Source: Nitrospira sp. (GTDB lineage Bacteria > Nitrospirota > Nitrospiria > Nitrospirales > Nitrospiraceae). From it: DNA of 52,265 bases. The notes below the pieces were generated by a model. That model did no database searches and was not told where the DNA came from. It worked only from the letters and a program-made list of their open reading frames with translations. Of the stretch, positions 8,828 to 13,134 are shown piece by piece (position 1 is the first letter of the stretch; every line of letters starts with the position of its first letter). Position numbers and translations under genes: made by a program. The stretch covers positions 1 through 52,265 of the forward strand of contig JAHBWT010000021.1 in the NCBI GenBank assembly GCA_019636815.1, read 5' to 3'.

Positions 8828-9148
8828 TCACGATCTCCGCAAAGCCAGCGCACAGACCGATACCACCTGGTCTTGTGCCGGAAGCAGAAACAACATGTGT
8901 GCGAGCGCACGATACGCCGCCTCTAGCTCACGACATCGATCCACGAATCGACCGGACGACAGGCGAGGGAAATAGTCCCGATGCTGCTCATAGAACAACG
9001 CACGTCGTTTCCATCGCTCGGCCTTGAAGATGAACAATCGAGTCGCCAACTCCAACAAATGCTTCGGGGATAACCGCTTTGGTCCCCGTCTCGCAGGTGT
9101 GGGAATCAGGGATGTGGATATGGCCAGTTCTTTCACTACTTCCTTCAT
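8828..9148 (-). CDS. Small conserved-looking basic protein, function unknown
   Basis: A 106-residue protein I do not recognise. The start is well supported by GGAGG eight bases before the ATG at 9148. The sequence is rich in Arg, Leu and Ala and mostly helical. It has a segment R-R-G-P-K-R-L-S-P-K-H-L-L-E-L-A that looks like a short nucleic-acid-contacting linker plus helix, and a Leu-rich C-terminal helix (A-L-A-H-M-L-F-L-L-P). No signal peptide or clear membrane anchor is visible. It stands alone between hairpins on its 3' side and a 455-base gap on its 5' side. The Shine-Dalgarno is the main reason to call it real. Confidence 0.6.
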   Translation of the reverse strand: MKEVVKELAISTSLIPTPARRGPKRLSPKHLLELATRLFIFKAERWKRRALFYEQHRDYFPRLSSGRFVDRCRELEAAYRALAHMLFLLPAQDQVVSVCALALRRS

Positions 9149-9603: not shown

Positions 9604-9987
9604 CTAGGCCTTAAAAGCAGCCACAGCCTCCTCTTCTGTGTTGTACAACTGAACATTTTCTGCATACACGCGATTCAACAGATTAAATCCGCTGGCTTCA
9701 AGGGCTTCTTTGACCATCCCCTTCGCTGCAGCAATCTTCATCTCCCCTTGCACGTTGTTGAGCTGCTTGCCCGCCAAAATAAGGACCCGGATGCCACCAC
9801 TGCTGATATAGTCGACATCAGCCAAGTTGACGACGACTTTTCGTGCGCCCGCGTCGACAATCTTTTTCATTTCCTGACTCCCGTGCTCGGCCGTGGTGGC
9901 GGCAAGACTTCCCTGCATTTTCACAACGGTGACGCCGGCATTCTCACGCGAGGTCACGGTCAATGTGTGTCGGGTCCCTTGGTCCAT
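9604..9987 (-). CDS. STAS-domain anti-sigma factor antagonist
   Basis: A single-domain 127-residue STAS protein of the SpoIIAA/RsbV type. Such proteins bind an anti-sigma kinase when unphosphorylated and release the sigma factor. The core motif N-L-A-D-V-D-Y-I-S-S-G-G-I-R-V-L contains the serine that is phosphorylated in the family. A strong Shine-Dalgarno (AAGGAGA) precedes ATG 9987. It lies 246 bases downstream of the SpoIIE-like fusion protein, which carries a phosphatase, an anti-sigma-kinase-type ATPase and its own STAS domain, so the two genes probably form one partner-switching module. No sigma factor is present in the window. Confidence 0.9.
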   Translation of the reverse strand: MDQGTRHTLTVTSRENAGVTVVKMQGSLAATTAEHGSQEMKKIVDAGARKVVVNLADVDYISSGGIRVLILAGKQLNNVQGEMKIAAAKGMVKEALEASGFNLLNRVYAENVQLYNTEEEAVAAFKA

Positions 9988-10233: not shown

Positions 10234-10578
10234 CTAGACTTTCTCTTGGATCTTCGAAAGAGCTTCGTCAAGCGTGGCGGCATAGAGGCTCATAATCATG
10301 GCCCCACTCAATTGGAGCACCGTGCGGACCTGGTCGTTCCCTCCACAGAGCACCACCCTTCCACCTGTTCGGATCATCGCCATCACGGCCTTCAGGATTA
10401 CCCGCAGCCCAATCGAGGAAATATACGAAATGTCAGAGAGATCCAGCACGATCTGGCGTTCTCCCCGCCCGATGTGGTCGGTCAGAACACGCTCCACCTC
10501 CGGTGCACTGTTCGTGTCGAAGCGGTCCTTCGGGGTGACGATCATCGCAGTACCGTTCCGACGTGATTCGACACTCAT
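10234..10578 (-). CDS. Stand-alone STAS protein from an internal start inside the fusion gene
   Basis: The ATG at 10578, codon 853 of the larger frame, is preceded by AAGGAGAG about five bases upstream, a stronger ribosome binding site than that of the long gene itself. Translation from it would give a 114-residue stand-alone STAS protein with the conserved Y-I-S-S-I-G-L core. So the locus may yield both a full-length fusion and a free antagonist. Alternatively, two originally separate genes have been joined by loss of a stop codon in the linker. This is an inference from the sequence and would need start-site or protein evidence. Confidence 0.5.
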   Translation of the reverse strand: MSVESRRNGTAMIVTPKDRFDTNSAPEVERVLTDHIGRGERQIVLDLSDISYISSIGLRVILKAVMAMIRTGGRVVLCGGNDQVRTVLQLSGAMIMSLYAATLDEALSKIQEKV

Positions 10579-13134
10579 TTCTACTCTCCTTATGTCTTGG
10601 CCTGATGGTTGCGGTAGCCTCTCGACTTCGAACGCGCTGAACCCGGCCCTGTCCCGACGTTTCATAGAGATGGACAGCTCAGATGCCAACTTCTTCTTCA
10701 CCGTCAGAACATTGCGTCCCACATTGCGATGATATGTTACCTCGTCGAACATGGAGCGGACTAGATGAATCCCCAAGCCGCCGATTTCACGTTCGTGGAG
10801 CAGCAACGACAGGTCCGGTGGCGCGACGGTTAACGGATTGAAGGGAATACCATCGTCGGTGATGGTCAGAACGACATAGTCCTCACGCACCTCCCCTTCT
10901 ACTTCAATAAGGTGCTCCGCCTGATCACCGGGAAACGCATACTGCACGATATTGTTGAGCAGATCATCCAGCGCCATATTCAGAGTCGGGATGAGCGGCT
11001 TGGCCGTTGTCCATTGCGCGACATACTGCTCAAACGCCGTCTGCAGGTCGGGAATGGCCATCAATTGGTTGGGCATCGTTTGGTGAAAGACCCTAGCCGC
11101 CACGTCGGACGGAGCGACACCGTGATACCGCAGGCCCAACATGGTGATATCGTCCGCCTGCGGAGCATCTCCGGCAAAGGCCCTCACCGCGTTCATAACC
11201 TCACCAAGACGATCGACGACGGAGACGGCCCGGGATTCGGTGAGAACCGATCTCAACCGGCTGTTGCCGAACAGTTCACGCCGCCTATTATCGGCTTCGG
11301 TAACCCCATCGGTGTACAGGAACAGCTCATCCCCCGGACCCAATTGAATCATGCTTTCCTTGAACGCAATGCCCGGCATGGGGCCGACCATGGGTCCGTC
11401 TTGGGCCGTCAGCCACTCGAACTGTTCGTTCTGCCGTTTCAGCAGCGGAGGGTTGTGCCCCGCGTTCGTCGCGAGCAGTGTCCCATCCCGAAGATTCAAG
11501 ATACCCAGGTACAGCGTCACGAACATGCAGGAATCGTTATCTGCGCTGAGCGCATCATTCACGTGGGTGACGATGCTGGCAGGAGAGGGGTCGGACACGG
11601 CTCTGGTTTTGACCATGATCTTGGTCATTGCCATAAAGAGCGCGGCAGGAACTCCGTTGCCCGATACATCGCCGACCACGAAACACAGCCGATGATCATC
11701 GACGAGAAAGAAATCGTAGAGATCGCCTCCGATTTCGAGGGCCGGTTCGAGCACTGCATACAGTTCCAGCTCCTTCCGATCGGGAAATGCGGGAAACACA
11801 CGCGGGAGCATGCTCCTTTGGATATCCCGGCCGACATTCAGTTCCTCCTGCATACGGGCTTTTGCGGCTTCCACCAACGCCAACGAATCCGCTAAGCGTG
11901 CCGTGGCGTCTTCGGCAGCCTGCTCGGCATTTTTCAGAGCCGTAATGTCTGTGGCGATGGCGACAATACCGCCATCGTGCGTCTTCTTTTCATGAATTTG
12001 GATCCACTCGCCGCTAGAACGGTGCTGAAGGTAGGGCCCTTGGGGGTTGTGGTGCATCTCGAGACGCTTTTTCACCCAGGAATCGACATTCCCGATCGCC
12101 GCGGGGATATCGCCTCGTTCCGCGATGCGGCGTATGATCGATTCAAATGAATCGCCTGGCTGGACTTCAGCCCCAGCTCCGGAGACCACTTCGCGATACT
12201 TATGATTGCAAATCACCAGGCGATCGTCTGCGTCGAAGAGCGCAAACCATTGTGGGACGCTTTCGATCGCTTCGAGCAACCGAGCATGACTATGGCGTGC
12301 CAAACTTGACGCCTTCGTCACTTGCCGATCGATGATGGCCAGAAGGGTCGAGAGCGACACCGCGACAACCGCGAGAAGTTCCACTTCGATTCCCGGTGGT
12401 GAGACGGTGGTCGTGAGGCCTAAAAAACTGTACGCAGGAATCATCCCGGCCAAATGAGAAGCGGACAGGGCAATCCCCATGGCGCTTGCCTTTTCCGTTA
12501 CCCGCCAATCCCCGTACGTAATGTTCCATCCACCGACCAAGAGAACAAAGATACCCAGCCCGACCATCACCACAACGGAGAAGATGAAAAGAGGCAAATC
12601 GTGACTCACATCGGCCATCTGGTGGATCGCCATCAGACTCGTGAAGTGCGTCACCAACAGGCAGGCGCCCATCAGCAACCCACCGGACACCAGTCGGAGA
12701 TGGCTCCCGTCATGGGTACTGATGAGATACACCGACACGGCCCCTGCCGCCCCGGCGGATAGGATGGAAACAAGGGCAAGGCCCACGTCCTGTGCGGCTG
12801 GAATCGGCGGACAGAAGGCCAGGTTACCGACGAAGTGGATCGCCCAGATCTCAAGCCCGCCCGCAACGGCTCCAACCGTGAGCCAGCGCATCTTGAAGGA
12901 GCCTTGTTCGGTTGCCCGCATGCGTTCGGCAATGCTGAGGATGACGTAGGCCGCCGAGCCACCGAGCAGCATCGAACAGACCGCAAGCACTGGGTCGCAA
13001 ATCCCCAACACGAAAGATCTCCAATCAGAACGTTCTGGCCACGACGCTGTGGAACACCATGAAACGCACCCCAGGCCCATGACAGATGGTGCCAAAGCAA
13101 AGTTGGAAATGACCAGCCCGGAGTTGAGTACCAC
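10234..13134 (-). CDS. MHYT-PAS-SpoIIE phosphatase-HATPase-STAS fusion regulator
   Basis: A 966-residue membrane signalling protein that combines every component of a partner switch. Residues about 40-290 form a seven-helix MHYT sensor. About 295-410 is a PAS domain, followed by a short coiled coil. About 440-650 is a SpoIIE PP2C phosphatase (A-L-E-I-G-G-D-L-Y-D-F and G-N-G-V-P-A-A-L). About 690-815 is an RsbW-like HATPase (N-N-I-V-Q-Y-A-F and G-G-L-G-I-H-L-V). Residues 853-966 are a STAS domain (D-L-S-D-I-S-Y-I-S-S-I-G-L-R-V). The 35-residue linker before the STAS domain looks unstructured and an efficient internal start lies at its end (see 10234-10578). The N-terminal start is uncertain: GTG 13134 has no good Shine-Dalgarno and ATG 13080 is an alternative. 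Confidence 0.88.
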   Translation of the reverse strand: MVLNSGLVISNFALAPSVMGLGCVSWCSTASWPERSDWRSFVLGICDPVLAVCSMLLGGSAAYVILSIAERMRATEQGSFKMRWLTVGAVAGGLEIWAIHFVGNLAFCPPIPAAQDVGLALVSILSAGAAGAVSVYLISTHDGSHLRLVSGGLLMGACLLVTHFTSLMAIHQMADVSHDLPLFIFSVVVMVGLGIFVLLVGGWNITYGDWRVTEKASAMGIALSASHLAGMIPAYSFLGLTTTVSPPGIEVELLAVVAVSLSTLLAIIDRQVTKASSLARHSHARLLEAIESVPQWFALFDADDRLVICNHKYREVVSGAGAEVQPGDSFESIIRRIAERGDIPAAIGNVDSWVKKRLEMHHNPQGPYLQHRSSGEWIQIHEKKTHDGGIVAIATDITALKNAEQAAEDATARLADSLALVEAAKARMQEELNVGRDIQRSMLPRVFPAFPDRKELELYAVLEPALEIGGDLYDFFLVDDHRLCFVVGDVSGNGVPAALFMAMTKIMVKTRAVSDPSPASIVTHVNDALSADNDSCMFVTLYLGILNLRDGTLLATNAGHNPPLLKRQNEQFEWLTAQDGPMVGPMPGIAFKESMIQLGPGDELFLYTDGVTEADNRRRELFGNSRLRSVLTESRAVSVVDRLGEVMNAVRAFAGDAPQADDITMLGLRYHGVAPSDVAARVFHQTMPNQLMAIPDLQTAFEQYVAQWTTAKPLIPTLNMALDDLLNNIVQYAFPGDQAEHLIEVEGEVREDYVVLTITDDGIPFNPLTVAPPDLSLLLHEREIGGLGIHLVRSMFDEVTYHRNVGRNVLTVKKKLASELSISMKRRDRAGFSAFEVERLPQPSGQDIRRVEMSVESRRNGTAMIVTPKDRFDTNSAPEVERVLTDHIGRGERQIVLDLSDISYISSIGLRVILKAVMAMIRTGGRVVLCGGNDQVRTVLQLSGAMIMSLYAATLDEALSKIQEKV
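10579..10590 (-). promoter_or_regulatory. Internal Shine-Dalgarno inside the SpoIIE-STAS fusion
   Basis: On the minus strand the bases just before ATG 10578 read AAGGAGAGTAGAA, a near-consensus ribosome binding site placed inside an uninterrupted reading frame. It marks the beginning of the STAS domain precisely, which is what would be expected if the domain is also translated independently. Confidence 0.65.

Follow-up and report, generated by a model that had tools for sequence, protein, structure and literature searches.

A putative partner-switching gene fusion in Nitrospira, with a linker of intergenic ancestry and a candidate fossil start

Why do all the components of a partner switch stand in a single reading frame in a Nitrospira genome, and what does the strong second start inside that frame signify? 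The window, i.e., the whole stretch of 52,265 nucleotides analysed here, contains on the minus strand a frame of 966 codons without an internal stop (10234-13134), encoding, in this order, MHYT, PAS, SpoIIE phosphatase, RsbW-like ATPase, and STAS domains. A preliminary description had proposed (i) that parts normally found as separate proteins are joined here, (ii) that the STAS domain carries its own strong Shine-Dalgarno (SD) sequence and ATG at 10578, and (iii) that the ratio of fused to free STAS could set the response, the alternative being an accidental fusion with a lost stop codon in the linker.

Architecture of the fused gene and its relation to known systems

All five domains exceed the Pfam curated cut-offs, including MHYT (32.8 bits; cut-off 21), PAS_7 (82.5 bits), SpoIIE (166.8 bits), HATPase_c_2 (67.0 bits; cut-off 27.4), and STAS (56.8 bits), so that the presence of all partner-switch parts in one frame is confirmed. 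The frame is open throughout its 966 codons, but its N-terminus appears to have been overcalled: the real start is probably GTG 13011, yielding a protein of 925 rather than 966 residues, because the frames of orthologues open there and a GGAG lies 7 nt upstream. In G068 (SFVLG...) and G069 (RGVFVLG...), the orthologous frame becomes open immediately ahead of the residue that corresponds to V42, most orthologue matches start at residues 30-42, and the SD energy amounts to -6.4 at GTG 13011 versus only -2.8 at GTG 13134. The features of the locus are the following:

10234-13011, minus strand: fused gene MHYT-PAS-SpoIIE-HATPase-STAS, 925 aa; start GTG 13011 probable (orthologue frames, GGAG)
13012-13134, minus strand: in-frame 5' extension counted in the preliminary description; probably untranslated (orthologue matches, weak SD)
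12400-12852, minus strand: membrane sensor region of MHYT type, with three His motifs and a single repeat scored by Pfam (residues 95-150)
11920-12267, minus strand: PAS_7 domain, residues 290-405 (Pfam)
11125-11700, minus strand: SpoIIE/PP2C phosphatase domain (Pfam); GGD, DVSGNG, TDG, and ADD motifs retained
10693-11070, minus strand: RsbW-like ATPase domain, residues 689-814; N-box DDLLNN (Pfam, motif alignment)
10579-10680, minus strand: linker of 102 nt (34 codons), putative former intergenic spacer, with the old SD AGGAG at 10586-10590 (alignments of relatives)
10237-10578, minus strand: STAS domain (STAS1), candidate fossil start ATG 10578, phosphoacceptor-type motif ISSIGLR (Pfam, alignments)
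9604-9987, minus strand: separate free STAS gene (STAS2), 127 aa (Pfam); adjoins the gene, whether fused or split, throughout the genus

MHYT repeats contain conserved His (and Met) residues that have been proposed as metal ligands. In the orthologue alignment, the His motifs near residues 100, 163, and 227 are largely retained, and the first HxxGM displays Asn instead of Met in nearly all orthologues. The ATPase domain aligns with RsbW (6m36) and SpoIIAB, and the STAS domain with SpoIIAA; the RsbW equivalog model PRK04069 matches with an E-value of 4.5e-08 and 32.6 bits, under its cut-off of 145. The Asn of the N-box is retained, and Asp replaces the Glu of RsbW in the fused proteins and in every split protein of the genus except one, the Glu being present in the outgroups. 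Because Asp stands at this position, the predicted kinase activity is uncertain.

To call these parts normally separate is justified, but a one-chain protein is already on record: M. tuberculosis Rv1364c unites PAS, PP2C phosphatase, kinase, and STAS (PMC9138534). Since Rv1364c has its domains arranged in one polypeptide as they are here, with the sensor followed by the SpoIIE/PP2C phosphatase, the RsbW-like ATPase, and STAS, the Nitrospira architecture is a variation on an established theme; the solved phosphatase-ATPase part of Rv1364c (3ke6) is matched by the window protein with an E-value of 1.7e-10. The Nitrospira system differs in (i) its sensor, formed by a membrane MHYT region plus PAS; (ii) a fusion apparently recent enough for split relatives to occur in the same genus; (iii) an adjoining second, free STAS gene; and (iv) the absence of a SigB/SigF/SigG-type sigma factor from those scanned. 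The genome displays 12 sigma region-2 matches, five of them also with region 3, and among the four of these five that were scanned, best fitting FliA/WhiG, RpoH, RpoS-like, and RpoD-like models, none reaches the SigBFG cut-off, which argues against control of a SigF-type factor. The Bacillus systems RsbU/RsbW/RsbV and SpoIIE/SpoIIAB/SpoIIAA share the same three catalytic and substrate domains, whereas in Bacillus the proteins are separate; Nitrospira has Asp for the N-box Glu and no adjacent sigma factor was recognised. SypE/SypA of Vibrio fischeri offers a resemblance at the level of the literature, in that a free STAS protein is controlled by one with several domains, as in the putative ancestral split form, but with a response-regulator input in place of MHYT/PAS and with the STAS protein separate. 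Nothing specific turned up in a literature search for MHYT combined with SpoIIE or STAS, or for partner switching in Nitrospira. As far as this analysis shows, the novel elements seem to be the membrane-bound MHYT sensor preceding the other domains, STAS2 as a neighbour, and the traces, preserved within one genus, of how the fusion arose.

The separate STAS2 gene, overlooked in the preliminary description, lies 246 nt downstream of the fusion on the same strand. In 53 of 57 loci it is found downstream in the same orientation, and it was not found in the three outgroups of this comparison; the gene order signal peptidase, fusion, STAS2, small ORF, and DEAD helicase is recurrent. STAS2 is more identical to its window copy than STAS1 is in 47 of 50 comparisons; the STAS2 motif YISSGGIR and the ISSIGLR-type motif of STAS1 are both near invariant, each with a Ser at the position of SpoIIAA Ser58. 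Because STAS2 adjoins the fused gene, a free STAS protein is available without any internal start, and STAS2 is the likelier diffusible partner compared with a STAS product initiated at 10578.

Two further observations were made. An ORF of 106 residues with an SD (8828-9148, minus strand) occurs in many relatives at 61-89% identity and has no Pfam or NCBIfam match. A second partner-switch-like set stands beside CheR/CheD/CheB-like genes at L093 (G000:C136:1-9000) and comprises a STAS protein with a DSSG motif, a receiver-SpoIIE protein, an Hpt-like protein, and a receiver-ATPase, names that were assigned by eye from the translations except for the Pfam STAS, SpoIIE, and HATPase matches.

Fused and split orthologues and the origin of the linker

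Orthologues were searched in 146 related genomes, the named relatives being Nitrospira metagenome assemblies, and the stretch of DNA separating the ATPase from the STAS domain was extracted from the orthologous loci for comparison. The gene is present in most genomes of the genus, where 45 orthologues are fused and nine are split (G078, G057, G016, G014, G060, G004, G062, G046, and G020). The nine split orthologues display a stop directly after the ATPase ('KKLA*' and similar), a spacer of about 100 nt, and then a STAS gene with its own ATG; the outgroups G087, G082, G053, and G084 are all split. Separate genes with a stop codon before the position matching 10578, which the preliminary description had named as evidence against its reading, thus occur only in the basal, ancestral-type species and not in the fused clade. 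Among the matches listed when 395 genomes of the phylum were scanned, a stop-free run into STAS appears only in Nitrospira.

In a tree built from the protein sequences of the flanking domains, two changes account for the distribution of the fused and split states, against a mean of 11 after shuffling, and the split orthologues are basal. A second tree, built without the long sequences and without G020 (different N-terminus, decayed STAS), is compatible with the grouping of all fused orthologues in one clade (log-likelihood difference 0.43, p-AU 0.33). Given the uncertain placement of fused G002 near the split orthologues, a strictly single origin of the fusion is compatible with the sequences rather than proved by them.

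Several loci depart from these two forms. The split locus of G020 (L058) encodes a seemingly unrelated N-terminus, and its STAS1 frame matches for only 35 residues, possibly a decaying copy. The gene is seemingly broken in G074 (L055), where the match stops near residue 525 within a contig of 1.76 Mb, and in G033 (L057), where the N-terminal half matches as separate pieces. At L066 (G034:C57:96500-106500), and also at L073, an N-terminally truncated second copy (residues ~596-964) follows the complete one in tandem, together with its own STAS2 fragment.

Comparison of the intervening DNA indicates that the fused linker is a former intergenic spacer. The spacers of split G016, G014, and G078 align to window-like linkers beyond shuffled sequences, with z values of 4.6 to 8.5; in the far fused clades (G067, G048) linker-spacer homology is little or undetectable, a fading that would be expected with time but is not demonstrated. 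The linker measures 102 nt, with 99 nt in three of the 42 complete linkers, and the split spacers of G016, G014, and G078 measure 100 or 103 nt, that is, 1 modulo 3. The spacer frame that leads into STAS is therefore the +1 frame, open in G078 and G020 and interrupted by one TGA in G016; because this frame is open into STAS, deletion of one base at the stop codon would suffice for fusion in G078 and G020. From these present-day sequences we infer that the genes were probably joined by the loss of a single base.

The linker shows the pattern of change of a translated sequence. No stop interrupts frame 0 in any of the 42 complete linkers, the other two frames being stopped in 29 and 31 of them, and the pairwise dN/dS amounts to 0.56 for the linker, compared with 0.10 for the ATPase and 0.14 for STAS; purifying selection acts on the domains flanking the linker. 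An AlphaFold2 model of the ATPase-linker-STAS part, obtained with nine input sequences, reaches a mean pLDDT of 55 with the ATPase poorly modelled, and in this model, poor overall, the linker is predicted to be disordered (pLDDT under 50).

The likely explanation is a derived gene fusion within Nitrospira, in which the spacer became the linker and a fossil internal start was left behind. The ancestor would have had a membrane sensor-phosphatase-ATPase gene, its own STAS gene about 100 nt further on, and STAS2 further down; a one-base deletion at the stop codon of the phosphatase-ATPase gene would have joined the frames, converting the spacer, including the STAS ribosome-binding site and ATG, into a flexible linker of 34 codons, and the fusion would then have spread through one clade.

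Whether this event changed the working of the switch is a separate matter. The fusion could have been accidental and near-neutral, the domains acting as before, the tether having no effect, and a leaky start amounting to noise. The relaxed constraint on the linker and its predicted disorder are consistent with this reading, as are the sufficiency of a single base deletion and the catalytic phosphatase motifs and STAS serines common to fused and split species. Nevertheless, all fused orthologues examined stay in frame, with strong purifying selection on both flanking domains, and a tethered STAS should alter the competition with STAS2, making strict neutrality unlikely a priori; a near-neutral fusion is regarded as a minority possibility.

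The internal start at position 10578

The AGGAG and ATG at 10578 are present as described, with an anti-SD duplex energy of -9.3 kcal/mol and a spacing of 6, and would represent a genuine former STAS gene start; among in-frame upstream ATGs of these genes, 4.6% (n = 1515) reach -8 or better. In the window species, the SD and ATG are predicted to be unpaired (0.91 and 0.82, respectively). A deliberately used start, with the ratio of fused to free STAS setting the response, could account for this strength and accessibility, and also for the occurrence of a strong SD (-8 or better) ahead of an ATG or GTG close to the old start in eight of 42 fused orthologues, versus about one expected from a sliding null. 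That enrichment is, however, expected by descent alone. The ATG at the matching codon is kept in 10 of 44 fused orthologues and lost in 34, among them five of the closest relatives of the window, with ~85% protein identity, in which it is replaced by AGG, AGA, or GGT; a strong SD with ATG is found among the fused orthologues only in the window, G006, G002, and G027. Bases of the split gene are retained in the fused clade at 0.65 for the SD and 0.61 for the ATG, no better than the 0.59 of the other linker columns. Special conservation of the internal start was thus not seen by SD energy, start-codon survival, sliding null, or column retention. With STAS2 already supplying free STAS, a selected two-product switch, as first suggested, is improbable.

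The gene of G006 (L013) is a mosaic: its upstream part is ~97% identical to its own clade, whereas from the linker to the STAS end, where the SD and ATG are intact, it resembles the window more closely, a pattern that points to within-genus recombination at the locus. Because the gene is mosaic there, the intact site of G006 represents no independent retention.

Under the gene-fusion explanation, the start at 10578 would be inherited from the once-separate STAS gene, because the linker is the old spacer, and the AGGAG-ATG appears to be mostly a leftover. In the window species, the intact and accessible site may still leak some free STAS. That species with an intact site still use the fossil start, making tethered and free STAS from one message, and that relatives lost it stepwise, is conceivable though rather doubtful.

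An assembly or sequencing artefact joining two genes, for which one might invoke the 143 contigs of the window genome and the metagenomic nature of the relatives, is rejected as practically negligible in view of 45 fused orthologues, including those of the single-contig genomes G061 and G023, with near-constant linker length and an open frame in all 42 complete linkers; of the accident envisaged earlier, what persists is the stop codon, apparently lost in the linker.

Possible working and significance of the fusion

On the analogy of RsbU/W/V (PMC8256260), a working scheme can be put forward tentatively, at slightly less than even confidence, in which (i) the MHYT/PAS part would set the activity of the phosphatase; (ii) the ATPase and the tethered STAS would form an intramolecular pair under phosphorylation control; (iii) STAS2 would serve as the diffusible partner, competing for the ATPase or reporting from it; and (iv) the fusion would fix STAS1 and ATPase at a ratio of 1:1.

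Within a single genus, the partner switch occurs both as two genes and as one, with the step between these forms readable in a stop codon, a spacer frame, and a putative fossil ribosome-binding site, and a non-coding spacer seems to have been turned into a coding linker. These natural alleles make the effect of tethering an antagonist to its kinase testable. If the fossil start were still used in some species, the genus would present a living series in which two genes give way to a single gene with two products, and this in turn to a gene that makes only one.
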